Below, one piece after another: positions 12,102 through 25,470 of a stretch of DNA of 64,000 nucleotides; the stretch's first letter is position 1; each line of letters opens with the position of its first letter. A program made the position numbers and the translations under genes. Origin of the DNA: Paucibacter sp. TC2R-5 (GTDB taxonomy: Bacteria; Pseudomonadota; Gammaproteobacteria; Burkholderiales; Burkholderiaceae_C); assembly GCF_025717605.1 (NCBI RefSeq), contig NZ_JAJIRQ010000002.1:19884-83883 (forward strand), read 5' to 3'. Under the pieces are notes generated by a model. It had not been told where the DNA came from and made no database searches. It was given only the letters and a program-made list of their open reading frames with translations.

Positions 12102-12267
12102 ACCACAGCATCAGCCTCAACCCGCGACCCGCGAGCTGCGGCCCCGCTTCGGTCGATTCCTGCTGTGCAAGTACCGAGTCTCGGGACTTTCACGCAGCAG
12201 CGCCGGCACCAGAATCGGCTACGCTTGCCGCCGCTGCCACCACCCAACTCTCTGCTGCCCCGTTGAC

Positions 12268-15003
12268 ATGTCCCCTCTCGCCGCGCCCCAACTCAGTCGT
12301 CATCTGGTCGACAACCCCAATCTCGGTGCCTGGTTGGAGGAATGCGCCGAAGTGTCCTTGGTGCTGGCGATTGCCCCGGCCGGCTTCGGCAAAACCACCG
12401 CCATGCTGTGCCTGCATGAGCGCCTGCGGGCCAAGGGCTTTGCCACCGCCTGGCTGCAGCTGAGCGCCGACGACAACCATGTCGAGCGCCTGTGTGCGCT
12501 CTTGCAGTCGGCGCTGCCCAGCAGCAGCGCTGCCGACGGCCGACCGGGCGAGCCGGCGCCGAATTTGATGGATGCGCGCTACACCGGCTCGCGCCTGGGT
12601 CAAGACGTGCTCGACGCGGTTGCGGCGATCCAGCCGCCGACCGCTATTTTTCTGGACGACTTTGACCATTTGCGCGAGGCGCGTGCGGTCGACCTGATGC
12701 AGCGTTTGATAGAGCGCCTGCCCGCCCATTGCAAGCTCTTCATCACCGCACGCAACGCGCCGCTGCTGCGCCTGTACAAGCTCAAGGCGCAAGGGCGGCT
12801 GCTGCAGATCGGCATGGCCGAGCTGAGTTTCGATCTCGAGCAGGCCGAGCTGTTTTTGAACCAACGCCATCAGCTGCAGCTCGACGCGCCCAGCGTGCGC
12901 CGCCTGCTGCACGCCACCGAGGGCTGGCCGGCCGGCCTGCAGCTGGCCGCACTGGCGCTCAAAGGGCGCGGCGACAAACCCGGCTTCATCGAGAACTTCT
13001 GCGAGCAGACCGCCGACATTGGCCGCTACCTCTACGAAGAGGTGTTCTGGGATCAATCCGAAGAGATCAAGACCTTTTTGCTGCGCACCAGCTTCGTCAA
13101 GCAGCTCGGGCCCGGCATCTGCAATGCCGTGGGCCAGATTGCCAATGCGGCCACGCTCTTGCGCCAGCTGGAGGCGCAGAGCCTGTTCGTGCTGCGCATG
13201 GGCGCGGCCGGCACCGAGTTCCGCTACCACCCGCTGTTTGCCGAGTTCTTGCAGCGCAAGCTGCGCGAGGACTATCCCGAATGGCTGGCCGATCTGCACC
13301 AGCGCGCGGCCGACTGGTTTTTGCAAACCGGCGACGCCGACGCCGCGATCGAACATGCGCTGAATGCGGGCAACCACAGCCAGGCCTGCGACATCTTGAC
13401 CGGCTATATCTGGCAGGCCCTGGCACGCGGCCACATCAGCAGCTGCAGGCATTGGCTGGGCCAGATACCCCAGGCCGTGCTGCAAGCTCATCCGAACCTG
13501 CAGGTCGCGCTGTGCTGGATCTATATCTTCAGCTACCAGTACAGCCAGGCCGGCCAATTGGCCGAGCAGCTGCGCCAAGTGCCTGCCGTGCAGAGCATGG
13601 CCGAGTACCGGATGCTGGGGCCGCTGTCCCTGGTCCTGATGGACAGGCTGGGTGAATGCGAACAGGCGCTCAAGCAGTATCAAGACCTGACCCTGAGCGG
13701 CCTCAGCGAGGCGACGTTTCGCAGTATCCACGCCTATGTCGACCTCTGCTCGCACCGTTTCGACGCGGCCTTGGAGAGTTCCGGCCGGGGCCTGGCACTG
13801 TTCAAACGCATAGGCAGCGTCTACGGCACCACCTTCAGCTACGGCATCAGCACCTACACCTTGCTGGCCCAGGGCCGCGCGCTGGAAGTGGTGGCCCAGC
13901 TGGAGCCGGCGCTGGCCGAGCTGAGCCGCCTCAGCGGCCGCCACAGCGCCAGTACTGCTTACGTGGGCGTTTACCTGGCCGGTGCGCTGTATGAGCTGGG
14001 CGAATTTGAGCGGGCCGAAAGTTTGGCGCGCGAATACCTGGACCTCTCGGCCGAGCTGGTGTTTCTGGACGCCATCGTCATCACGCACCGGATCTTGTCG
14101 CGCGCGCTGTGCCGGGCCGGCCAATATGCCGAAGCCGCGGCGCTGATCCATGCCGGCATCGAGTTGGGCCGCTCGCTTGGCCTGACGCGCATCGTGGCAC
14201 CGATGCGGCTGGAGCAGCAGTACCAGGTGCTGCATCAGTTCGACCATGGCCACCCGATGGCGCCCGAACGCCTGAGCCTGCTGCCGGCGGCCTGGGACTT
14301 TGCCGCCGACCGCATGACGCCCATCAATGATGTGGAGGATCAGGCCTTGGCCGGCCTGCGCCTGGGCCTGCGCGAGGGCCGCGCCGAGCAGGTGCTGGAG
14401 GCCTGCTCGGTCAAACGCTTGAAGGCCAGAAGCCTGGGCCGGCGCCGGCGCCAGCTCAAACTCGGGCTTTTGCAGGCTCAGGCCTTGCACCGCCTAGGCC
14501 GCGACAGCGAGGCACTGGCCCTGCTCAGCGAGCTGCTCTTGAGCGAGGCCGAGTTGGGCCTGCGCGCCAGCTATCTGGAGGAAGGGCCGCAACTGGTGAG
14601 CATGTTGGAGGCGCTGCGCATCGGCGCCGCGCCGCGTTTGCAGGCGGTGCTGGAGCGGGTGCTTGGGAAGAATTTGCTGCAGGAGCTGAGCATGGCGGAA
14701 GCGCCCGCCGCCGAGCCAATGGCAGGCCAGGCCCAAATCCATACCGCCATGGTCACGGCGACGACAACACCAACAGCGACGACAGCGCCGATAGCTCCGC
14801 GTAGCGAATGCGCTTTGTCGCCGCGTGAGCTGCAAATCCTGCAATGCCTGTCGGCCGGCATGCCCAATAAACAGATTGCCAACAGCTTGCAGATTTCCGA
14901 GCCCACGGTGAAGTTCCATCTGCGCAACGTCAATCACAAGCTGGATGCGCGCAACCGCACACATGCCGTGTTCATCGCGCGCGAGCGCGGCTGGGTCAGC
15001 TAA
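12268..15003 (+). CDS. MalT/LuxR-type ATP-dependent transcriptional regulator
   Basis: 911 residues from the ATG at 12268. Domain order: N-terminal STAND ATPase with Walker A 'APAGFGKTT' (about 40) and Walker B 'AIFLDDFDHL' (about 127), a long alpha-helical TPR-like sensor region, and a C-terminal LuxR helix-turn-helix (LSPRELQILQCL...NKQIANSLQIS...HLRNVNHKL). Members such as MalT and AlkS multimerise with ATP and an inducer to activate one local operon. Neighbours give no clear target. A low-complexity Ala/Thr linker precedes the DNA-binding domain. Confidence 0.85.
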   Translation: MSPLAAPQLSRHLVDNPNLGAWLEECAEVSLVLAIAPAGFGKTTAMLCLHERLRAKGFATAWLQLSADDNHVERLCALLQSALPSSSAADGRPGEPAPNLMDARYTGSRLGQDVLDAVAAIQPPTAIFLDDFDHLREARAVDLMQRLIERLPAHCKLFITARNAPLLRLYKLKAQGRLLQIGMAELSFDLEQAELFLNQRHQLQLDAPSVRRLLHATEGWPAGLQLAALALKGRGDKPGFIENFCEQTADIGRYLYEEVFWDQSEEIKTFLLRTSFVKQLGPGICNAVGQIANAATLLRQLEAQSLFVLRMGAAGTEFRYHPLFAEFLQRKLREDYPEWLADLHQRAADWFLQTGDADAAIEHALNAGNHSQACDILTGYIWQALARGHISSCRHWLGQIPQAVLQAHPNLQVALCWIYIFSYQYSQAGQLAEQLRQVPAVQSMAEYRMLGPLSLVLMDRLGECEQALKQYQDLTLSGLSEATFRSIHAYVDLCSHRFDAALESSGRGLALFKRIGSVYGTTFSYGISTYTLLAQGRALEVVAQLEPALAELSRLSGRHSASTAYVGVYLAGALYELGEFERAESLAREYLDLSAELVFLDAIVITHRILSRALCRAGQYAEAAALIHAGIELGRSLGLTRIVAPMRLEQQYQVLHQFDHGHPMAPERLSLLPAAWDFAADRMTPINDVEDQALAGLRLGLREGRAEQVLEACSVKRLKARSLGRRRRQLKLGLLQAQALHRLGRDSEALALLSELLLSEAELGLRASYLEEGPQLVSMLEALRIGAAPRLQAVLERVLGKNLLQELSMAEAPAAEPMAGQAQIHTAMVTATTTPTATTAPIAPRSECALSPRELQILQCLSAGMPNKQIANSLQISEPTVKFHLRNVNHKLDARNRTHAVFIARERGWVS

Positions 15004-15055: not shown

Positions 15056-16354
15056 TTACAAGGCTGCAGCCAGGTCCGCAAACAGGGGCCGCGCGGCAGC
15101 ATCGGCCTGCACGCAAGCCGCTTGCAGCCGATGCAGATCGGGCGCCGCATCCGGGCAGCGATTCAGACACTCCTCGAGCAGGTGGCCAAAAGCCAAGACC
15201 TCAAGCCGCTCAAAGCGCTGGCGCTCGGCCCCGCTGAGATGTTCGGGCAGCAAGCTGGCGGCCCCAAAGTCGCCGAGATGGACCCCACCTCGGCCGTCCC
15301 AGAGCAGATTGTGGGCATAGAGGTCGCCATGCGAGATGCCGCGCCTATGCAGGTGGCGGGCCGCATCGACGACACCGCGTGCCATCTGCCGCAGGACTTC
15401 TTCGCCCATCTGCAGCGAAGCCGGGTAAACATCGCGGGTGCATGAGCTCAGGCTGGGCGGGCCGGCCAGGGTGCTGAACTCGGGGCCGATGCGCGGCATC
15501 ACCAAGCCCTCGGCGCCTTGCGGATGGCCGAGCAAACGCGCGCTGGCTGCTATCAGATGCGGGTGCAGGCCGGCGGCCAGACTGGCCGCCCATTCGCTGT
15601 GTGGCCAGCCGTCGCTGGTGACGTCGCCCTTGAAGACCTTGACGGCCAATTCACGTTCATGTGCTGGCCCAGCCGGCCAATGCGCGGCATGGATCACGCC
15701 GGACGCGCCCTGGCCCAGCAGCGCCCCCATTTGCAGCGCCGCCCAGTCGAGATCGGGCAGCGCTGATCGCTCAAGCACATGCGATTCGCGTTGCGAGCCC
15801 CAAGGGTTGCCGCCCACCGCCAACCAGGCCAAATTGGGCAAGTCCAGCAGCCAGGGCGGGATTTGCTCGAAGTGATTGGCCGACATGCGCAAGAGGCCCA
15901 AGGCGCGGCATTGCGCCATCGACTCGGGCAAGTGACTCAGTTGATTGCCTGTCAGCGCCAGCTTTTGCAGCTGCCCCCGCTCGCCCAGCTCGGCCGGGAG
16001 TTCGCTCAGCTGGTTGTCGGTCAGGATCAACCAGCGCAACTGCGTCGGCAGGGAAGCAGCGGGCAGGCGGGTCAGCTGATTGGACTTGAAGCCGACCATG
16101 CTCAAGGCCGCGCAGGCGCCCAGCACCTCGGGCACCTCGGTGAAGCGGTTCTCCGCGCAGAAGATCACCTTGAGCTTGTGCAGGCGGGGCAGATCGTCTG
16201 GCAGGCTGCTGAGCGCGTTGCCACTTAGATTGAGCACCTCCAGGCTGTCGGCCAGGGCAAAGACTTCGGGCGGCAGTTCGGTCAGGCCGCAAGACAAATC
16301 AAGACGGGTGATGCCCGCAAGGTCGCCGTTGCGTAATTGGGCCAGGGTGTGCAT
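15056..16354 (-). CDS. Leucine-rich repeat protein kinase family protein
   Basis: 432 residues from the ATG at 16354 (MHTLAQLRNG); longer frames upstream are not family-like. Residues about 1-185 contain seven or eight leucine-rich repeats of the 'L..L.L..N.L..LP' type. A kinase-like domain follows: glycine loop 'LGQGASGVIH', lysine in 'LAVKVF', catalytic loop HGDLYAHN and metal loop GDFGAA. HGD rather than HRD is common in such atypical bacterial kinases. No signal peptide, so probably cytoplasmic. Substrate unknown. Confidence 0.8.
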   Translation of the reverse strand: MHTLAQLRNGDLAGITRLDLSCGLTELPPEVFALADSLEVLNLSGNALSSLPDDLPRLHKLKVIFCAENRFTEVPEVLGACAALSMVGFKSNQLTRLPAASLPTQLRWLILTDNQLSELPAELGERGQLQKLALTGNQLSHLPESMAQCRALGLLRMSANHFEQIPPWLLDLPNLAWLAVGGNPWGSQRESHVLERSALPDLDWAALQMGALLGQGASGVIHAAHWPAGPAHERELAVKVFKGDVTSDGWPHSEWAASLAAGLHPHLIAASARLLGHPQGAEGLVMPRIGPEFSTLAGPPSLSSCTRDVYPASLQMGEEVLRQMARGVVDAARHLHRRGISHGDLYAHNLLWDGRGGVHLGDFGAASLLPEHLSGAERQRFERLEVLAFGHLLEECLNRCPDAAPDLHRLQAACVQADAAARPLFADLAAAL

Positions 16355-16427
16355 GGGTGGGCGAGCAAGAAAAGCGTGGAAGGGCCGGATTGTCGCGCCT
16401 GCCCCGGCCCTTGAATCCGCCGCGACC

Positions 16428-16458
16428 CTATCCCTTCGGATAGCTAGCACTATCCCTT
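16428..16458. promoter_or_regulatory. Direct-repeat operator candidate for the AraC gene
   Basis: The word CTATCCCTT occurs at 16428-16436 and 16450-16458, exactly 22 bases apart, about two helical turns, the spacing typical of AraC-family half-sites. The first copy also lies in a small hairpin CTATCC-CTTC-GGATAG. Position is 90-120 bases before the AraC start in the divergent gap with the kinase gene. Function is inferred. Confidence 0.45.
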
Positions 16459-17912: not shown

Positions 17913-18548
17913 ATGAACGCATTCAAACTTTCCGCCGTCGCAGCCCTGCTCGCCGCCTCCCTGTCGGCTTCCGCCATGACCGCTATTGACGACGGCGCGC
18001 TGGCGCAAGTCAGCGGCCAGGACGGTGTGTCTATCGCCGGTGACCTGAACATCAATATCGGTTCGTTCAAGTACACCGACACGGACACCAACGGTGGTTC
18101 GGTCTCCTTCAACAACATCGGCATCAAGGGCATGTTCGTGATGACGCTGGACATCCTGAACAAGAGCGCCTTCGTCAGCAATGTGGCTGATTCCATCGGC
18201 ACCCACCTGGGCTTCACCCAAGCCGATGCCGACAACGGCAAGGCCTTGGCCGCCGGCGTCGCAGTGACCCCAACAGCCGGTGGCGGTGCCGTCGCTACAC
18301 AACTGGGCAAGTTGACTGCAGCCACTTTTGACACCTTCGGCGCAGCCACCGGCGCAGCCATCTATGACGGCGCCAGCGACATCGTTCAGTTCGCCTTCCC
18401 TAACGCCAAGCTGGATTCCAAGCTGAGCCCAAGCGTCACCGTCGCCGGCATCACCCTGGGCAATAGCGTGGGCAACAAGTCTTTCGGCAGCATCGCCATC
18501 AACAACATGGACCTGCAAGGTTCCAAGTTCTGGATCTGGGCACATTGA
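17913..18548 (+). CDS. Exported DUF6160-like protein 1 (GG-motif family)
   Basis: 211 residues. A signal peptide (1-21, ending SASA) is followed by '[19 protein letters not shown]', where G35-Q-D-G38 resembles the end of a double-glycine leader. The rest is a beta-rich, Asn/Gly-rich domain with no cysteine. The last residues, '[11 protein letters not shown]', are shared with the next gene. First of five related genes and the only one followed by a strong hairpin with a T-rich tail, so it is probably made in the greatest amount. Family name is from memory of similar proteins; function is not known. Confidence 0.7.
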
Positions 18549-18583
18549 GCCAAGGTTTGATTTGAACCCTTGAGCGCAAGTCT

Positions 18584-18608
18584 CGGCCCGGCGTCCTTTG
18601 CCGGGCCG
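18584..18608 (+). terminator. Intrinsic terminator or attenuator after exported protein 1
   Basis: A perfect 9-bp stem (CGGCCCGGC / GCCGGGCCG) with a 7-base loop, followed by ATTTCTTCT. The next cluster gene starts 42 bases downstream in the same direction, so it may act as a partial terminator that sets a high ratio of protein 1 to the other cluster products. Confidence 0.7.
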
Positions 18609-18650
18609 ATTTCTTCTGCGCTGCCAACTTTTTGCTAACAACTCATTCAC

Positions 18651-19187
18651 ATGCAACGTCTCTATCTGCTGATGCTCGCCGCATTCGCCCTGCTCTTGTT
18701 GAGCAGCGCGGCGCGAGCCATGAGCAGCATGGACGATGCAGACCTGGCCGATGTGCATGGCCGCGACGGCGTCACGCTGGCGGCCGACCTGGACATCAGA
18801 ATAGGCTCCTTCAGCTACAGCAACAAAAGTGCCGGCAACCCCGACGGCGGCAGCATCTCCTTCAACAACATCACCCTGCGCGGCATGTTCGTGATGACGG
18901 TGGACCTGTTGAACTCGGCCAGCTTCACCGCGACCATGAGCAACGCAATGGCCGCTTACGGCGCCGATGGCACGGCCGGCATCAGCCGCCTGCTGAGCAG
19001 CGGCACCTACGACGGCCACAGCGATGTGATCCAGTTCGCGCTGCCGAACGCCGGGCTGGACCACAGACTGAGCCCCAGCCTGGCCATTGCGTCGGTAACC
19101 ATGGGCAATAGCAGCGCCTCCTTCGGCAGCTTTGCCTTCACCAATATCGATCTGCAAGGCTCGAAGATCTGGATGTGGGCGCGATGA
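18651..19187 (+). CDS. Exported DUF6160-like protein 2 (GG-motif family)
   Basis: 178 residues. Signal peptide 1-23 ending ARA, then 'MSSMDDADLADVHGRDGVT' with G37-R-D-G40. Close paralogue of the preceding protein: shared blocks include 'IRIGSFSY', 'GGSISFNNI.L.GMFVMTVD', 'DVIQFALPNA.LD..LSPS' and the end 'IDLQGSKIWMWAR'. It lacks the 30-residue central insertion of protein 1. Its TGA overlaps the next ATG (ATGA), so the two are translationally coupled. Confidence 0.7.
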   Translation: MQRLYLLMLAAFALLLLSSAARAMSSMDDADLADVHGRDGVTLAADLDIRIGSFSYSNKSAGNPDGGSISFNNITLRGMFVMTVDLLNSASFTATMSNAMAAYGADGTAGISRLLSSGTYDGHSDVIQFALPNAGLDHRLSPSLAIASVTMGNSSASFGSFAFTNIDLQGSKIWMWAR

Positions 19188-20026
19188 TGAAGAGCATCCG
19201 GACCGCTAGCTTTCGAAGTTTGCTGCTCTGCCTGACGCTGCTCGGCAGCGCCGCCGCGCAAGCCCAACAAAGCCAGATGGCGCCGCTGCCGGACGCCGAG
19301 CTGGCCCGCGTCTGGGGTCAGGCAATGGTCGCTATCAGCAACACCAGCTTGAACGGCCTGGACTTCTCGCGCCTGACACTGAATGCCGACCTGAAGCTGA
19401 GCGCCAATTTTTCCAATCTGCGCTTGGGCGAATACAACTACGCCGCGCGCAATGGCAGCGGCGCCGATATCGACATCAGCCGGCTGCAGTTTGGCCGCAG
19501 CGATCTGTTTGAAGCGCAGCGCACTGTCGCCCTGAGCAACCCATTCTTCGAGTTGGTCTACCGTCCAGCCAGCGGCGCCGGCGAGCGCGAGATTGTCGGC
19601 ATGCGCCTCGGATTTGAGGGCGTCAGCGGTGCCTTCGGTCTGAGTGCCAAAAACATCAGCGGCTCGCTCGCGATTGCCGACAGCCAAAGCGCCAATGTCC
19701 TCGACTCTCGCCAAGACCCCTTGGGCGGCAAGCGCTGGGACGGCGGCAATTGCGGCGCCGCCGCCTGCCCCTTCAGCCTGGCCCAGATCGGCAGCCTGCA
19801 GGCGGGCGATGCGGCCGGGCCGAGCCGAGATCTATTCCTGGCGGTGCTGAAAAGCGCGGTGCAGTTCCCGGCGGCCGTGGCCGGCATGGCCGCGCCCGAT
19901 CCGGCGCAGGCAGGCATCTGGATGAATTGGCGCGACAAGCTCAGCGCCGGCAATCTGAACGCGGGCCTGCCGCCTAACTTGCCACCCGTCCTTCCACCGC
20001 CAATGACCAAGCCCGGCGGCGGCTGA
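19184..20026 (+). CDS. Exported GG-motif family protein 3, divergent
   Basis: 280 residues from the ATG overlapping the previous stop. Signal peptide to about residue 27 (AAAQA). The family motif follows as 'LPDAELARVWGQAM', with the second glycine replaced by methionine, so processing by a GG-type peptidase would be doubtful. It contains a lone Cys pair in 'GGNCGAAACP' (possible disulfide) and ends in a proline-rich tail (PPNLPPVLPPP) instead of the W-W-A end. Possibly an adaptor or minor component. Confidence 0.6.
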   Translation: MMKSIRTASFRSLLLCLTLLGSAAAQAQQSQMAPLPDAELARVWGQAMVAISNTSLNGLDFSRLTLNADLKLSANFSNLRLGEYNYAARNGSGADIDISRLQFGRSDLFEAQRTVALSNPFFELVYRPASGAGEREIVGMRLGFEGVSGAFGLSAKNISGSLAIADSQSANVLDSRQDPLGGKRWDGGNCGAAACPFSLAQIGSLQAGDAAGPSRDLFLAVLKSAVQFPAAVAGMAAPDPAQAGIWMNWRDKLSAGNLNAGLPPNLPPVLPPPMTKPGGG

Positions 20027-20031
20027 AGACC

Positions 20032-20958
20032 ATGCTGCGCCCCAACCGCCTTGAAAACACCAGAGTCTTGCAGGCTCTGTTGGCGCTTGTGGGCTGCACC
20101 TTGAGTTGGGCCGCATTGGCGCTAACGCCGATTTCCGATGAAGACTTGGCCCGCGTCCAAGGCCGCGACGGCTTTGCCTTCAATCTGCGCGGCTTTGCAC
20201 TGCAAGGCCCGCTGACGCTGCGACTGGGCGCGGCGGATGGTTCCGGCCTGGCGCTGTCCAACTTTGCGCTGTCACGCTCGGACGATCTCGCCGCCACCTT
20301 CTCCGACCCCTATCAGCTGAGCCTGATCAAGGGCCCAAGCGGCATGCCAGACCGCGTGATCTTGAGCGAGCCGCTCAATCTCAACAGCGCCTTGCGCTGG
20401 CAGTTTGCCGCCGACCTGAGCTTGATCGACAAGAGCAGCAGCGCGGCGCCAAGCAGCTTCAACGCCGGCGCGCTCGTACTGCAAGACCTGCGCAGCTTCG
20501 GCGGCACGCTGAGCTTGGCGCCCAGCGCCGACCCGAATGAGCAGGGCATCGCCTTCGGCCTGGGTCTGCGACTGGATGTGGGCGCCCTGCTGCTGCGCCC
20601 GCGTGGGCGTGCTGACACGGCGTTGTTCGACAGCCCCGGCGCAGCCGAGCAATTCAGCCTGCGCGGCATTCATCTGGCTGCCGCGACAGCCGACGGGCAG
20701 CTCGGCAACAGCCTCTGGCGCCTGGCCGATCTGGACCGCCAGCCGCTGCTGCTGAACGCCGTCAGCAGCCCCGAGAGTGGCGGCTTTCTGCATCTGAACT
20801 TGGCCTGGCCGAGCCAAGGTCAGGCGCCGGCCGGCAGCTTGGCTATCGACAACATCGCCTTCAAAAGCGATGTCGGGCCTAGCCTCGATCTGGGCAGCAG
20901 TCGCATTGGCAGCATGCAGATCCAGTACCTCGATGTGCGCTTGAAGACGGGGCCCTGA
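20032..20958 (+). CDS. Exported GG-motif family protein 4
   Basis: 308 residues, longest of the five. A hydrophobic signal (about 12-30) is followed by 'LTPISDEDLARVQGRDGFA', with G44-R-D-G47 an excellent match to the shared motif. The mature region is beta-rich with many Leu/Asp/Ser repeats ('LGLRLDVGALLLRPRG'). No cysteines in the mature part. C-terminus 'MQIQYLDVRLKTGP' lacks the aromatic tail. It begins 5 bases after protein 3 stops and ends 3 bases before protein 5. Function unknown. Confidence 0.65.
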   Translation: MLRPNRLENTRVLQALLALVGCTLSWAALALTPISDEDLARVQGRDGFAFNLRGFALQGPLTLRLGAADGSGLALSNFALSRSDDLAATFSDPYQLSLIKGPSGMPDRVILSEPLNLNSALRWQFAADLSLIDKSSSAAPSSFNAGALVLQDLRSFGGTLSLAPSADPNEQGIAFGLGLRLDVGALLLRPRGRADTALFDSPGAAEQFSLRGIHLAAATADGQLGNSLWRLADLDRQPLLLNAVSSPESGGFLHLNLAWPSQGQAPAGSLAIDNIAFKSDVGPSLDLGSSRIGSMQIQYLDVRLKTGP

Positions 20959-20961
20959 TCC

Positions 20962-21426
20962 ATGCATCGCAGTCGCACCAGGGCCCCCGCCTTGCTGGCC
21001 ATTTTCTTGTTGTTGCCCTCAGCGGCGCAGGCTGCCAATGCCCTGTCAGACGAAGAACTGGGCGGCGTGGCGGGGCGCGGCGGCATTGTCTTGAACGCGC
21101 ATCTGGAGCTCAACACAGCGGCCACGTCCGACAACCGCGTCAGCCTCGGCTTTCGGGTCGCCGGCAACACCAGCTATTTGCTGCTGCACAAGCTCAGCGG
21201 CACGCTGGATTTGCTCGGCCTGACGCTGCAGGCGGTAGCCGGGCCGGCGGAGATCGGCGACGTGATTCAGCTGACGCTGCCGACCTTTGTGGGTTTCAAG
21301 GATTTCGGCGTCAAGGCGATCGGCGTGCAGAGCGATCCCTTGGCCCCGATCGCAGCCAGCCTCGGGCAGATCCAGCTGAACGGCAGCGTGCAAATGCAGG
21401 GTCAGGTCTTGCTCTGGGCCAAGTGA
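20962..21426 (+). CDS. Exported GG-motif family protein 5
   Basis: 154 residues, the shortest. Signal peptide 1-24 (PSAAQA), then 'ANALSDEELGGVAGRGGIV', the most bacteriocin-leader-like version because the motif is L-S-D-E-E-L-x-x-V-x-G-R-G-G. The mature domain is about 113 residues of beta pattern, ending 'VQMQGQVLLWAK', comparable with the W-A-basic ends of proteins 1 and 2. It directly precedes the C39 peptidase gene by 27 bases. Confidence 0.65.
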   Translation: MHRSRTRAPALLAIFLLLPSAAQAANALSDEELGGVAGRGGIVLNAHLELNTAATSDNRVSLGFRVAGNTSYLLLHKLSGTLDLLGLTLQAVAGPAEIGDVIQLTLPTFVGFKDFGVKAIGVQSDPLAPIAASLGQIQLNGSVQMQGQVLLWAK

Positions 21427-21453
21427 TGTTGAAACCTTTGGGGACCTTCTGAT

Positions 21454-22221
21454 ATGTGGATGATTTTGCTCGGCGCAGTGGCGGCGCTGATTGGCGGCGC
21501 GACGGTCAACACCCAGCACCCCTTCCAGGACATGCCGGAGAACCAGTTCGAGCTGCCCATGACTCAGGTGGGCGGCGGCGTGGCGCCGCTGTCGGTGCGG
21601 ATCGAACCGCTGTCGGAGATCAAGTTCCGCAACATCGTCCACCAGGCCTATGACTACAGCTGCGGCTCGGCTGCGCTGGTGACCGTCATCAACAACTACC
21701 TCGGCATCCAGGTCAATGAGCAGCAAGCGATGGAAGGCATGTTGGCCTTCGGCGAGCGCGACAAAATCATCGAGCGGCGCGGCTTCTCGCTGCTGGACAT
21801 GAAGCGTTATGTGATCAGCCTGGGCGCAGAGGGGGCCGGCTTTCGCGCCTCGATGAAGGATCTGGCCGAGCTGACGCAACCGGCCATCGTGCCGATCGAC
21901 TATGCCGGCTTCAAACATTTTGTGGTGTTTCGCGGCATCCGCGGTGGGCGGGTCTTTCTGGCCGACCCGGCCATGGGCCACATCGTCTTCTCGACCCAGG
22001 AGTTCGAGGAACTCTGGGACCGTAACACGCTATTTCTGCTGACACCGGGCAAAAGCCAAGGCCAGAAAACCCTTTCCCTGCTGGCGATTGGCGACGAAGA
22101 GCTGGGCGTCATCGACGACGACCTGGTGCGCCGCCACGCCAACCTTCCCCTGCCGGACAACAGCGAAGCCTTGCGCAACGCAGTCCAAGCCAACTTTGGC
22201 ATTTTCAATCTCCGACGCTGA
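21454..22221 (+). CDS. Exported stand-alone C39-type cysteine peptidase
   Basis: 255 residues. N-terminal hydrophobic signal or anchor (about 3-19) places it in the periplasm. C39 catalytic set is complete: oxyanion Gln64 and Cys70 in 'HQAYDYSCGSAALVTV', His155 in 'GFKHFVVFRG' and Asp171 in 'FLADPAMG'. In bacteriocin exporters C39 domains cut leaders after Gly-Gly on the cytoplasmic side; here there is no ABC domain and the enzyme is exported. Its five upstream neighbours carry GG-like motifs, so they are its likely substrates. Overlaps nothing; the barrel gene follows after 2 bases. Function inferred. Confidence 0.85.
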   Translation: MWMILLGAVAALIGGATVNTQHPFQDMPENQFELPMTQVGGGVAPLSVRIEPLSEIKFRNIVHQAYDYSCGSAALVTVINNYLGIQVNEQQAMEGMLAFGERDKIIERRGFSLLDMKRYVISLGAEGAGFRASMKDLAELTQPAIVPIDYAGFKHFVVFRGIRGGRVFLADPAMGHIVFSTQEFEELWDRNTLFLLTPGKSQGQKTLSLLAIGDEELGVIDDDLVRRHANLPLPDNSEALRNAVQANFGIFNLRR

Positions 22222-22223
22222 CC

Positions 22224-23231
22224 ATGAAATCCCTGCTGATCCTCTCCACTGCCCTGCTGTTCGCCGCTAGCTCCCAAGCCCAAAGTACCGAGAAAGCTGC
22301 CGCCCCGAGTAAAGACGCTGCCCGCGAGGCCTTGGCCAAGCAAGACGGCGACAGTGACCAAACCGCCGTCCTCAAGGCCGCGCTGAGCGCCCAAGACAAG
22401 CAGTATTCACTGATCCGCAAGGGCAAGATGGCGCTGACCTATGACTTCGGCTACGCCTATATCGGCGCGCAGCAAATCAATGCCCGCTTCGCCGACTCGA
22501 CGCTGACCCTGTTCAATATCCAGAACACCCGCTCGCACACCGTCACCAACAGCTTCTCGGCCGACTACGGCCTGCGCGACAACATGACGGCCAATGTCGT
22601 CGTACCCCTGGTCAGCAAATTCTCCGAGTCGGAGACTTTTTCCGGCATGAGCAATGGCTTTGGCGACATCAGCCTAGGCATGCGCTGGCAGCCGCTGGCC
22701 CTGAGCCGCGACATGCCCTCCTTCACCACCTCGACCACCCTGCGCCTGCCGACCGGGCGCAGCCCCTTCAAGGTGACGGCCGGCCAGGGCTTGAGCACCG
22801 GCTCGGGTTACACCGCACTGAGCTTGGGCGCCAACACCTCCAAGGTGATGGACCCGGTCGCCCTGTTCGGCTCGGTCTCGCTGACGCTGGGCGCGCCGGT
22901 ACGCCATCTGAGTCAGAAGTTGAACGACAACGCCACGCTGACCGGCGTCGACCCCGGCGCCAGCTTCGGCTTCGGCATGGGCTTTGCCTATGCGCTGTCC
23001 TACAAGGTCTCGACCACGGTCTCCTTCCAGGAAACGATCTCGGCCAAGACCCGGCTGATCCTGGCCGACGGCAAGACCAGCCAGACCTCGACCCAGACCT
23101 CGGGCCTGCTGAGCTTCGGCTTGGGCGTGCGGGCCGCGCCGCAGACAACCTTCAATGTGTCGGTCGGGGTCGGCCTGGGGCCGGATGCGCCGGCCTTCAC
23201 CCTGGGGCTCAATATCCCGCTGAATTTCTGA
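22224..23231 (+). CDS. Outer-membrane beta-barrel protein (MetA-degradation-like transporter family)
   Basis: 335 residues. Signal peptide 1-19 (SSQAQ), a polar helical segment of about 45 residues, then alternating hydrophobic strands through to the C-terminal 'LGLNIPLNF', a typical outer-membrane terminal Phe. The pattern fits the PF13557-like barrel family labelled transporters. It is cotranscribed with the peptidase (2 bases) and the FadL-like gene (7 bases), so it may provide the outer-membrane exit or anchoring site for the tandem exported proteins. Function inferred. Confidence 0.65.
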   Translation: MKSLLILSTALLFAASSQAQSTEKAAAPSKDAAREALAKQDGDSDQTAVLKAALSAQDKQYSLIRKGKMALTYDFGYAYIGAQQINARFADSTLTLFNIQNTRSHTVTNSFSADYGLRDNMTANVVVPLVSKFSESETFSGMSNGFGDISLGMRWQPLALSRDMPSFTTSTTLRLPTGRSPFKVTAGQGLSTGSGYTALSLGANTSKVMDPVALFGSVSLTLGAPVRHLSQKLNDNATLTGVDPGASFGFGMGFAYALSYKVSTTVSFQETISAKTRLILADGKTSQTSTQTSGLLSFGLGVRAAPQTTFNVSVGVGLGPDAPAFTLGLNIPLNF

Positions 23232-23238
23232 GGCAAGC

Positions 23239-24867
23239 ATGAGCTCCTTTGCAGTGGGCCACCGCCGGCCCGCGCGCCTCGTTGCGGCCGGTTTGGGCTG
23301 GGCCCTGCTGGGACTGGCACCGGCGCAGGCCGCCTTGACCGACAACCTCGGCGCCAGCGTTGTCGCGATGTCGCTGGGCAATGCGGTGGTGGCCGACCCA
23401 CCGGGCATTGACGCCATCCATTTCAACCCGGCCGGTCTGACCCGGATCAAGCACGACCGCAAACAGGATTCGATCTTCGGCGCCAGCATCAAGCCTTATG
23501 CGAGCTTTCATCAGCCCGAAGGCTTTGATATTGGTGGTTTCAAGGAAGACCCGCTCAACAACACCCACACCGGTGACAACGTGCGCAGCTCGCTCTTCCT
23601 GCCCATCTACGGCCCGGTGCCCGTGCCCATGCCCAGCGCGATCGGCGCCGGCCTGGGCCTGGCCTTTCACGAGGCCGACTCGAAATGGACCTTCGGCACC
23701 GCCTCCTATGTGCCGATGGCGGTGGGCATTGACCGCACCAAAGACCCGAATGATCCGGCCCGCTTCGATGGCCGCAAGGTGGTGATGCAGCGTCTGGTCT
23801 ATTTGTCGCCAACCGCCGCCTACAAGTTCAGCGATTCCCTGAGCTTCGGCCTGGGTGTGCCGATCGCGCACCAGGGCTTCGCCTTGAACACCGATATGCG
23901 CATGCCTAACGAGTTACTCGGCACCATAGGCAAGCTGCAAGATGCCTGGTGCGGCGACAACGGCAACCCGCTGGACGCACTGGCCTTTGGCCTGTGCGGC
24001 GGCGGCAAAGAGGGGCGTGTGCGGCCGTTTGGCAAGGCTGGCAATATGGACTTCGAGCTGACGGCGCCGGTTGACCCCACGCTCAATATCGGCATGCTGT
24101 GGGAGCCAAAGGACTGGTTCGCTTTTGGCGCCAGCTACCAGTTCGGCTCCAAGACCGCGATGACGGGGCGTTTCACTTTCAGCGCCGAACCCATGCTGCG
24201 CAAATTCGTCGAGGGCATGTATGCCAGTTTGCAAGGCCCCATCATGGCCGCCACCTTCGGCATGCCGACCTCCATTCCCGAGGTGCAAAGCGGCAACGTG
24301 ACCCTGGTGCTGCCCTTCCCCGAACACGCGCAGGTCGGCATCAAGGTCAAGCCGCTGTCCTTCCTGCAGTTCAATATCGACGCGAACTGGACCAACTGGA
24401 AACGCTGGGACAAGATGACCTTCCAGTTCGACCAACAGATCGCCTTGCTGCAAATGGCGCGCCTGTTCGGTCAGGCCGACGCCAGCAAGCTGATCATTCC
24501 CCGCGACTACAAAAGCCCGGTGCACTTTGGCTATGGCATGGAGCTGAGCGTGGGCAAAAGCATCGTCGTTCGCGCCGGCTACGAGCCGCGCAAGAGTTCG
24601 ATCCCGCGCTCGGCGCTGGATCTGATCGCGCCGATGCCGGACCTGGTCGTGCAAAGCCTGGGTCTGGGCTACACGACCAAGGGCGGCACCCGCTTCGACC
24701 TGGCAGCCAGCTATGCGCATGGCAAGTTCGACCTGCCGGCCAACACCAGTTGCAAGCTCAATTGCAATAACTTCTTCAACGTGATCTACAACCCCTATGC
24801 CGGCCTGGACATCAACGGCGGCATCCGCATCCGCTATGCCGGCGTGACGATGTCCCACGATTTTTAA
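23239..24867 (+). CDS. FadL/OmpP1-type outer-membrane protein
   Basis: 542 residues. Signal peptide of about 32 residues. The mature start 'ALTDNLGASVVAMSLGNAVVADPPGIDAIHFNPAGL' is shown here only as two blocks, LGNAVVADPPGIDAI and HFNPAGL, the N-A-x-x-A...NPAG plug pattern of FadL-family channels. The barrel ends 'VTMSHDF' with a terminal Phe. FadL proteins move hydrophobic molecules across the outer membrane; longer members like this one are found in secreted-protein clusters. Sixth or later gene of the same operon. Confidence 0.75.
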   Translation: MSSFAVGHRRPARLVAAGLGWALLGLAPAQAALTDNLGASVVAMSLGNAVVADPPGIDAIHFNPAGLTRIKHDRKQDSIFGASIKPYASFHQPEGFDIGGFKEDPLNNTHTGDNVRSSLFLPIYGPVPVPMPSAIGAGLGLAFHEADSKWTFGTASYVPMAVGIDRTKDPNDPARFDGRKVVMQRLVYLSPTAAYKFSDSLSFGLGVPIAHQGFALNTDMRMPNELLGTIGKLQDAWCGDNGNPLDALAFGLCGGGKEGRVRPFGKAGNMDFELTAPVDPTLNIGMLWEPKDWFAFGASYQFGSKTAMTGRFTFSAEPMLRKFVEGMYASLQGPIMAATFGMPTSIPEVQSGNVTLVLPFPEHAQVGIKVKPLSFLQFNIDANWTNWKRWDKMTFQFDQQIALLQMARLFGQADASKLIIPRDYKSPVHFGYGMELSVGKSIVVRAGYEPRKSSIPRSALDLIAPMPDLVVQSLGLGYTTKGGTRFDLAASYAHGKFDLPANTSCKLNCNNFFNVIYNPYAGLDINGGIRIRYAGVTMSHDF

Positions 24868-24891: not shown

Positions 24892-25470
24892 ATGAAAACT
24901 CTCTACAAAATGACTCGCCTGACCGCCCTCACAGCCCTCACCTTGAGCGCCAGCCTGCTGTGCAGCGCCGTACAGGCTCAGACCCAAACGCTAGCCAGCG
25001 CCGACAGTCGCCAAGCCTTGGTCGACAAATTGTTGTCGCTCTGGCATGTCGACGATGTCGCGGTGGTGATGGTGCAGCGCCCGGCCGCCAGCGCCATGGA
25101 GCAGGCCCGTATCGCGCTGCAGGGTCGCGTCAGCGCCGACAAGCGCGACCGCACGCTGAAGGACATCAGCAGCGATGTGCAGACCTATGTCGATGAGGCC
25201 ACGCCCTTGGCGCGCCAGAGCGCGCAGCGCCTGCTCAAACCGACGCTGAGCCCTGTGCTGCTGCAGCAGTTCACCGACGAGGAGTTGCGCCAGATCATTG
25301 CGCTGCTGGAGTCGCCGGTGAAGAAGAAGTTCGAGAAGCTGGCGCCGGAGCTCGAGCGAAGCTTGGGCGAAAAAGTCGCCGAAGACAGCGGCCCGGCCAT
25401 CAATCCCAAACTGCAAACGATGACGCAGGCGGTGGGCCTGAAGCTGCGCGCCGCATCGATTGCACCTTGA
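24892..25470 (+). CDS. Exported DUF2059-like protein
   Basis: 192 residues with a signal peptide to about residue 29 (AVQAQ). Helical throughout, with a DUF2059-like core: 'FTDEELRQIIALLESPVKKKF' is its most typical block (broken here as FTDEELRQIIALLE then SPVKKKF). DUF2059 proteins are small periplasmic helical proteins of unknown role. It is 24 bases after the FadL-like gene and closes the cluster. A chaperone-like role for the exported proteins is speculative. Confidence 0.65.
   Translation: MKTLYKMTRLTALTALTLSASLLCSAVQAQTQTLASADSRQALVDKLLSLWHVDDVAVVMVQRPAASAMEQARIALQGRVSADKRDRTLKDISSDVQTYVDEATPLARQSAQRLLKPTLSPVLLQQFTDEELRQIIALLESPVKKKFEKLAPELERSLGEKVAEDSGPAINPKLQTMTQAVGLKLRAASIAP

Follow-up and report, generated by a model that had tools for sequence, protein, structure and literature searches.

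A Fil-like pilus locus of Paucibacter whose exported proteins carry a double-glycine-type leader, probably trimmed by a periplasmic C39 peptidase

The window analyzed here, 64,000 nucleotides of Paucibacter sp. TC2R-5 (contig NZ_JAJIRQ010000002.1, positions 19,884 to 83,883), contains on its plus strand five tandem genes for predicted exported proteins (P1 to P5), followed in order by genes for a C39 peptidase, a FapF-like barrel, a FadL-like protein and a DUF2059 protein. The open reading frames (ORFs) of P1 to P5 and of the peptidase lie where an earlier note on this DNA had placed them. From its gene content the locus is classed as Fil-like, with putative FilA-type subunits, a FilB peptidase, a FapF-like FilC and a FadL-like FilD. 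Three sets of sequences were used for comparison: 369 genomes at the class level, 18 congeners, and 80 named FilB loci; G000 denotes the window's own genome. In the feature list, numbers of loci refer to the named FilB set.

17913 to 18548, plus strand: P1, putative FilA-like pilus subunit precursor, 211 residues (DUF6160, 72.6 bits; NCBIfam FilA below cut-off)
17913 to 17975, plus strand: P1 signal peptide, residues 1 to 21, ending SASA before M (by-eye prediction; low model confidence)
17976 to 18020, plus strand: P1 leader, 15 residues (22 to 36), predicted cut between Q36 and D37 (the chain of PDB entry 9xfv starts at the D37 equivalent, nucleotide 18021)
18651 to 19187, plus strand: P2, FilA-like paralogue; leader MSSMDDADLADVHGR at 18720 to 18764 (DUF6160, 64.3 bits)
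19184 to 20026, plus strand: P3, predicted exported protein with the motif; leader at 19265 to 19321, ending LPDAELARVWGQ (relative in 67 of 80 loci)
20032 to 20958, plus strand: P4, predicted exported protein with the motif; leader LTPISDEDLARVQGR at 20122 to 20166 (relative in 67 of 80 loci)
20962 to 21426, plus strand: P5, predicted exported protein with the motif; leader ANALSDEELGGVAGR at 21034 to 21078 (relative in 66 of 80 loci)
21454 to 22221, plus strand: FilB-class C39 peptidase, 255 residues, hydrophobic N-terminal segment (PF03412, 66.7 bits; NF050078 FilB, E 1.4e-74, below cut-off)
22224 to 23231, plus strand: FilC/FapF-like outer-membrane beta-barrel (NF050079, E 1.6e-79, and NF058560 FapF, E 4.2e-20, both below cut-off)
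23239 to 24867, plus strand: FilD, OmpP1/FadL-type outer-membrane protein (NF050080, E 7.4e-121, below cut-off; Toluene_X, 133.6 bits; relative in 78 of 80 loci)
24892 to 25470, plus strand: DUF2059 protein, a conserved neighbor (PF09832, 27 bits; relative in 69 of 80 loci)

P1 and P2, whose mature parts are 40% identical, exceed the Pfam cut-off for DUF6160, and P3 to P5 fall below it. All five proteins are present in each of the eight congeneric loci read. The FilC barrel matches the FapF structure 5o65 with an E value of 2.5e-18. The closest named FilB to the window peptidase, at 94% identity, is that of Paucibacter sp. B2R-40, within the Roseateles/Paucibacter genome group.

The peptidase scores far above the Pfam Peptidase_C39 cut-off of 22 bits. 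The catalytic residues named in the earlier note (Gln64, Cys70, His155, and Asp171) were confirmed and are invariant in 38 of 38 aligned FilB sequences. As that note had also said, the enzyme lacks an ATP-binding cassette (ABC) transporter: C39 is the sole Pfam domain in its 255 residues, which places it outside the C39-ABC exporter class, and its structure model is closest to the peptidase domains of PCAT1 and ComA. As for the signal peptide claimed for it, the N terminus, MWMILLGAVAALIGGATV, is hydrophobic, but when read by eye it has neither a basic n-region nor an AxA site, so a cleavable signal is doubtful; it is modeled with low confidence as a helix over residues 2 to 14, and its sequence resembles an anchor that stays uncleaved more than a signal peptide. 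Small Escherichia coli plasmids and Campylobacter plasmids (plasmid matches H22 and H25 to H40) also encode distant relatives with a C39 domain annotation.

NCBIfam describes NF050078 as "putative pilus system C39 family peptidase FilB", and the Fil families NF050077 to NF050080 are the best-scoring NCBIfam families for P1, the C39 peptidase, FilC, and FilD. Gene order is shared with Fil systems and the set of subunit, C39 peptidase, FilC barrel, and FilD is complete, and the Acinetobacter baumannii FilA carries the leader motif. The window differs in having five motif proteins and in that none of the four families reaches its curated cut-off (best scores against cut-offs, in bits: FilA 32.7/220, FilB 250.9/475, FilC 268/630, FilD 404.1/970). 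Membership of the Fap amyloid system was considered and rejected, the FapD score being 127.4 bits against a cut-off of 330 and no FapE match being found in the window's genome.

Following the predicted signal peptide, P1 to P5 have leaders of 15 residues (19 in P3), by sequence count, that end in [LMI]-x-D-x-x-L-x-x-V-x-G-[QR]. The motif described in the earlier note is thus present in all five proteins, with the amendment that its first place accepts Ile (P1 and P4) as well as Leu or Met. Double-glycine leaders follow a rule of a hydrophobic residue or Leu at −12, an acidic residue or Glu at −8, Leu at −7, Val or Ile at −4, and Gly at −2. Places −12, −7, −4, and −2 agree with this rule in all five window proteins, and −8 is Glu or Asp in four (Ala in P1). 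Place −1 is Gln or Arg in all five, so the Gly or Ala of double-glycine leaders is absent. The pattern fits 37 of 40 leaders from eight congeneric loci.

Proximity to the peptidase separates the motif from chance. Within 6 kb of C39 at the 80 loci, 295 of 1327 signal-peptide-like ORFs carry it, versus 12.6 expected by shuffling; farther away the figures are 5 of 456 and 3.6. These ORFs were picked by a home-made heuristic and include spurious ones. Motif neighbors are present at 77 of the 80 loci. A filter that admitted only Q, R, G, A, K, or S at −1 kept 286 of the 295 near matches, giving 192 distinct sites with D/E at −10 in 190, L/M at −7 in 192, V at −4 in 170, and G at −2 in 192; the purity of −12, −10, −7, −4, and −2 is partly built in because the search pattern restricted these places. 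Place −1, free in the search, is Q in 99 sites, R in 52, G in 22, A in 15, and S and K in two each. P5-type relatives in Duganella and Rugamonas (e.g., LDDAELSQVSGG, followed by DGISF) and in Massilia (LPDSELAAVRGA, followed by DGISF), and P4-type relatives (e.g., LTDNALSAVRGG, followed by DGVSF), have a true Gly-Gly or Gly-Ala at the same site. Gly-Gly occurs in 21 loci and Gly-Ala in 17, a count that includes two probable chance reads of Gly-Gly near FilB (L191 and L192), which also stand in the site counts above. Sites were assigned to P1 to P5 by ORF overlap, which is a rough procedure. These data support the identification of the motif as a double-glycine-type leader associated with an exported C39 peptidase. 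A bacteriocin or microcin identity was rejected for the window proteins, since the precursors are 154 to 308 residues long and one is the orthologue of a filament subunit.

Another small family with the motif (e.g., LSDEELGEVAGQ, followed by GRDD) lies 3 to 5 kb from FilB in L173, L201, L204, L206, and L207, and also occurs in L144 and L193. By tblastn it is unrelated to P1 to P5, and it is a possible sixth substrate.

One Pfam family, DUF6160, spans the motif, as would be expected if the motif were simply the first structural element of a single fold and had no role in processing. When the mature parts of 22 motif proteins were compared (17 from genomes G196 and G309, five from the window), they fell into 19 sequence families, and only 3 of 231 pairs were similar at E ≤ 1e-3. 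In the P1 model the segment is of low confidence and lies ahead of the first strand. We therefore give the single-fold explanation hardly any credence. The leader thus acts like a modular tag on mature parts that, for the most part, have no relation to one another. Of another ten motif proteins that were scanned, seven score at the DUF6160 cut-off or above, mostly through profile positions 1 to about 49, one lies just under it, and two associated with the third peptidase clade described below have no match; none of the ten has an informative NCBIfam match. The leader also suggests what DUF6160 represents: what many of its members have in common is the signal peptide and leader.

Leader and peptidase are also tied at the level of genomes. 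A FilB-class C39 peptidase (above 210 bits) is found in six of the 369 genomes (G000, G065, G068, G196, G268, and G309), and DUF6160 in the identical six. Under independence the chance of this is 3e-13, a figure to be read with the fact that the genomes are not independent, G196 and G309 belonging to one family and G000 being the window's own. Both also occur in the same 9 of the 18 congeners. From 32 sequences of the six genomes we built a profile, A2, that covers the signal peptide and the leader. At E ≤ 1e-8 it matches exclusively in these six among the 369 searched. Each of 29 other genomes gives a single match (E 1e-4 to 0.01). In 25 of them the match stops at or before profile position 28, within the signal-peptide part; the four reaching further are in G230, G264, G412, and G420, and the G230 match adjoins another exported C39 peptidase. 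Among the congeners A2 matches in the same nine genomes, and out of sample it matches all eight named FilB genomes of Pseudomonas and Kistimonas. In G196 and G309 the matches number 17 and 19, with at most 19 candidates scored, and are scattered across many contigs, but each genome has one FilB match. The three FilB loci that have no motif neighbor (L163, L179, and L208) belong to genomes with motif genes elsewhere, and four Pseudomonas genomes have an extra motif-protein cluster in which the C39 pattern finds no peptidase within the 14 to 15 kb read. The earlier note had held that loss of the motif in homologues without a C39 neighbor would speak against its proposal; the motif is kept in such homologues, and their genomes carry the peptidase elsewhere.

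Some other periplasmic protease might remove the leader, with the C39 association reflecting operon history. The restriction of strong leader-profile matches to genomes with a FilB-class C39, the dispersal of substrates over many contigs in G196 and G309, the occurrence in some genomes of a C39 peptidase that has no motif neighbor, and the way leader type tracks C39 clade make this very improbable.

P1 has an orthologue of known structure. PDB entry 9xfv, titled "bacteria pilus (like)" and "Pilus-like-alpha, a bacteria pilus-like structure obtained from a Karst cave from Guilin City", contains 25 chains of one distinct sequence, matches P1 with an E value of 1.1e-84, is 79 to 80% identical to its mature subunit, and has the same fold. 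By analogy with this deposited orthologue, P1 would assemble into a filament. Residue 1 of the 9xfv chain aligns to D37 of P1, directly after V-S-G-Q36, and the chain ends at the C-terminal His. Its numbering, 38 to 210, fits a 210-residue precursor minus 37 residues, and the 210-residue orthologue in L140 has a 22-residue signal peptide and a 15-residue leader that match it. In the AlphaFold2 model of P1, residues 1 to 36 mostly have predicted local distance difference test (pLDDT) values of about 50 to 57, and the first strand begins at 39. A Gln-Asp bond is not a signal peptidase I site by the AxA rule. The mature N terminus therefore most likely lies at the C39-type bond, as 9xfv starts at the predicted position. 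The C terminus of FilA-type subunits is mostly [AG]-His (P1, 18537 to 18545; relatives in L210 to L217), which may be an assembly or exit signal; H211 of P1 is at least 90% conserved in 42 sequences, and the last residue is Arg in P2 and Lys in P5. When compared with solved chains, P4 gave two weak matches, both of them enzymes with no relation to it (E 0.009 and 0.13).

An alternative is that signal peptidase I cuts alone and the leader stays as a docking tag for FilC or for a chaperone-like C39 protein, the C39 enzyme cutting another target such as FilC. In some type 1 secretion systems, C39-like domains that lack catalytic activity serve as chaperones, and processing of FapF was also considered, in the available portion of PMC5557850. 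We regard this alternative as improbable: the leader is absent from the 9xfv model, the catalytic Gln, Cys, His, and Asp are invariant in the aligned FilB sequences, and for FapD the Cys38Ala change abolished FapC secretion and N-terminal peptides of FapE were missing (PMC5557850, as far as the available text goes).

Several observations weigh against cleavage of the leader by FilB. Known C39 sites have Gly or Ala at −1, unlike the Gln or Arg found here. Gly at −2 is not absolute, P4 of congeners G007, G010, and G015 having V-H-A-R and one G065 protein having V-A-Q at the site. The 9xfv chain may hold modeled residues only, in which case it might simply begin where order begins. The A2 profile was built from the same six genomes, which leaves its negatives and the out-of-sample genomes as independent evidence, and the co-occurrence is partly trivial in cases where substrates share the operon.

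The earlier note had proposed that C39 cleavage takes place in the periplasm after Sec export, and had thought this route undescribed. The mechanism appears largely right, but the route is not new: FapD of the Pseudomonas Fap system was described in 2017 as a C39 peptidase that reaches the periplasm via Sec; FapC secretion was reported to depend on its active-site Cys, and its substrate was unclear (Rouse et al. 2017, PMC5557850), and FilB is named in NCBIfam. In the accessible part of that paper, FapE is the sole Fap protein reported as N-terminally processed, and the authors find no canonical C39 site in Fap proteins. We found that genuine Pseudomonas FapE carries a leader of the same kind, LSDQELSQLRGR; the two Pseudomonas FapE proteins above the NCBIfam cut-off both have it (PEELSDQELSQLRGRF and PEELSDKELSQLRGRF). 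Sixteen FapE relatives, none over the cut-off, occur in 15 of the 369 genomes, each 133 to 388 bases from a C39 match, and all 16 have hydrophobic-x4-[LM]-x2-[hydrophobic or Q]-R-G-[RK]-[YF] after a hydrophobic N terminus. A single Pseudomonas fap region, L265, was scanned, and in it the motif is in FapE alone, apart from one antisense frame. A strict pattern is found on the C39 strand in 19 of 24 FapD-class loci and on the opposite strand in 2 of 24, versus a mean of 0.9 in shuffles and 0 of 23 control loci with signal peptides. It misses five loci (L039, L041, L047, L052, and L061), which counts against the generality of the site, and a looser pattern recovers it in L047 and L052. The peptide map in the available portion of the paper is not proof of a C39 site, since Arg is a trypsin cleavage point as well and the stretch published as processed exceeds the leader in length. 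FapE has no match in the plasmid records and nothing below E 0.21 among solved chains.

A third group of exported C39 peptidases lies beside exported proteins with true R-G-G leaders, e.g., VSNQELDQLRGGF (L045, L046, L049, L054, and others); the third-clade proteins of L049 and L054, scanned in full, have no Pfam or NCBIfam family name. On a peptidase tree the three leader types occupy three parts, requiring five changes versus 23.9 in shuffles. The tree was made by a quick method, with 20 of 48 inner branches weak and one long outgroup sequence; two ABC sequences were left out when their Cys motif was missed, and FilB sequences were given one leader type as a group. One genome, G068 (L036 and L135), holds both a FilB-class C39 with Gly-Gln-leader proteins and a FapD/FapE pair, and offers a natural test of leader specificity. 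It is likely, in our judgment, that FilB, FapD, and the third clade make up a general system for maturing and sorting proteins in the periplasm, in which one peptidase recognizes a modular leader, placed after the signal peptide, on many otherwise unrelated exported proteins, dispersed ones included, and that FapE is the FapD substrate, cut after LxDxELxxLRG[RK].

For the window, we consider it highly probable that a Fil-type pilus locus encodes Sec-exported P1 to P5, whose leaders are trimmed by a periplasmic FilB C39 peptidase before exit and assembly. The sequence and the start of 9xfv are the fixed points of this scheme, and we infer the steps between them. P1 to P5 would cross the inner membrane via Sec, and signal peptidase I would remove the signal peptide, leaving the double-glycine-type leader of 15 to 19 residues. 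FilB, on the periplasmic side and probably membrane-anchored, would bind the leader through the hydrophobic −12, −7, and −4 places and cut after G(−2)-[Q/R](−1). Trimmed subunits would exit through the FapF-like FilC and polymerize, with P1 as the main subunit and P2 to P5 as minor ones. Trimming would license assembly; as a guess, the leader may hold back periplasmic polymerization until it is removed.

The proposed system shares with Fap (PMC5557850, available portion) a stand-alone C39 peptidase, in the window predicted to be Sec-exported and periplasmic, and an adjoining FapF-type barrel, and its leader is of the kind that we found on FapE; it differs in its DUF6160-type folded subunits, its extra FadL-type FilD, and the lack of a FapE match. 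The 9xfv filament is known from a structure entry that, in the text consulted, gives no operon, protease, or leader information. With the PCAT1 and ComA C39-ABC exporters the window shares leader spacing, as the rule is generally given, and the peptidase fold; it differs in having no ABC transporter, in that the substrate would meet the peptidase after Sec, and in the prevalence of Gln or Arg at −1. Type IV prepilin peptidase is another single dedicated enzyme that trims many dispersed precursors, with a different fold, and in the window the cut would follow removal of the signal peptide. We found no paper on this leader or on 9xfv in the literature searched, which included the available portions of PMC5557850, PMC6173800, PMC12822426, PMC3203104, and PMC3684753; as far as that search extends, the leader rule, its spread, the FapE assignment, and the 9xfv match are new.

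Upstream of the locus, the ORF at 15056 to 16450 on the minus strand, opposite to that of the locus, appears by eye to encode leucine-rich repeats and, after them, a protein-kinase-like domain, and that at 12190 to 15003 on the plus strand encodes a MalT-type LuxR regulator, a possible regulator of the pilus genes.

Work on Fap amyloids had left unsettled which substrate and which recognition signal periplasmic C39 peptidases use. A kept leader register with a free −1 place gives one rule for FapE, FilA, and dispersed proteins, and names the bond. Leader trimming would provide a maturation step for the newly deposited 9xfv filament. Together, the findings point to a pilus system that uses the leader-cutting trick of bacteriocins outside the inner membrane.

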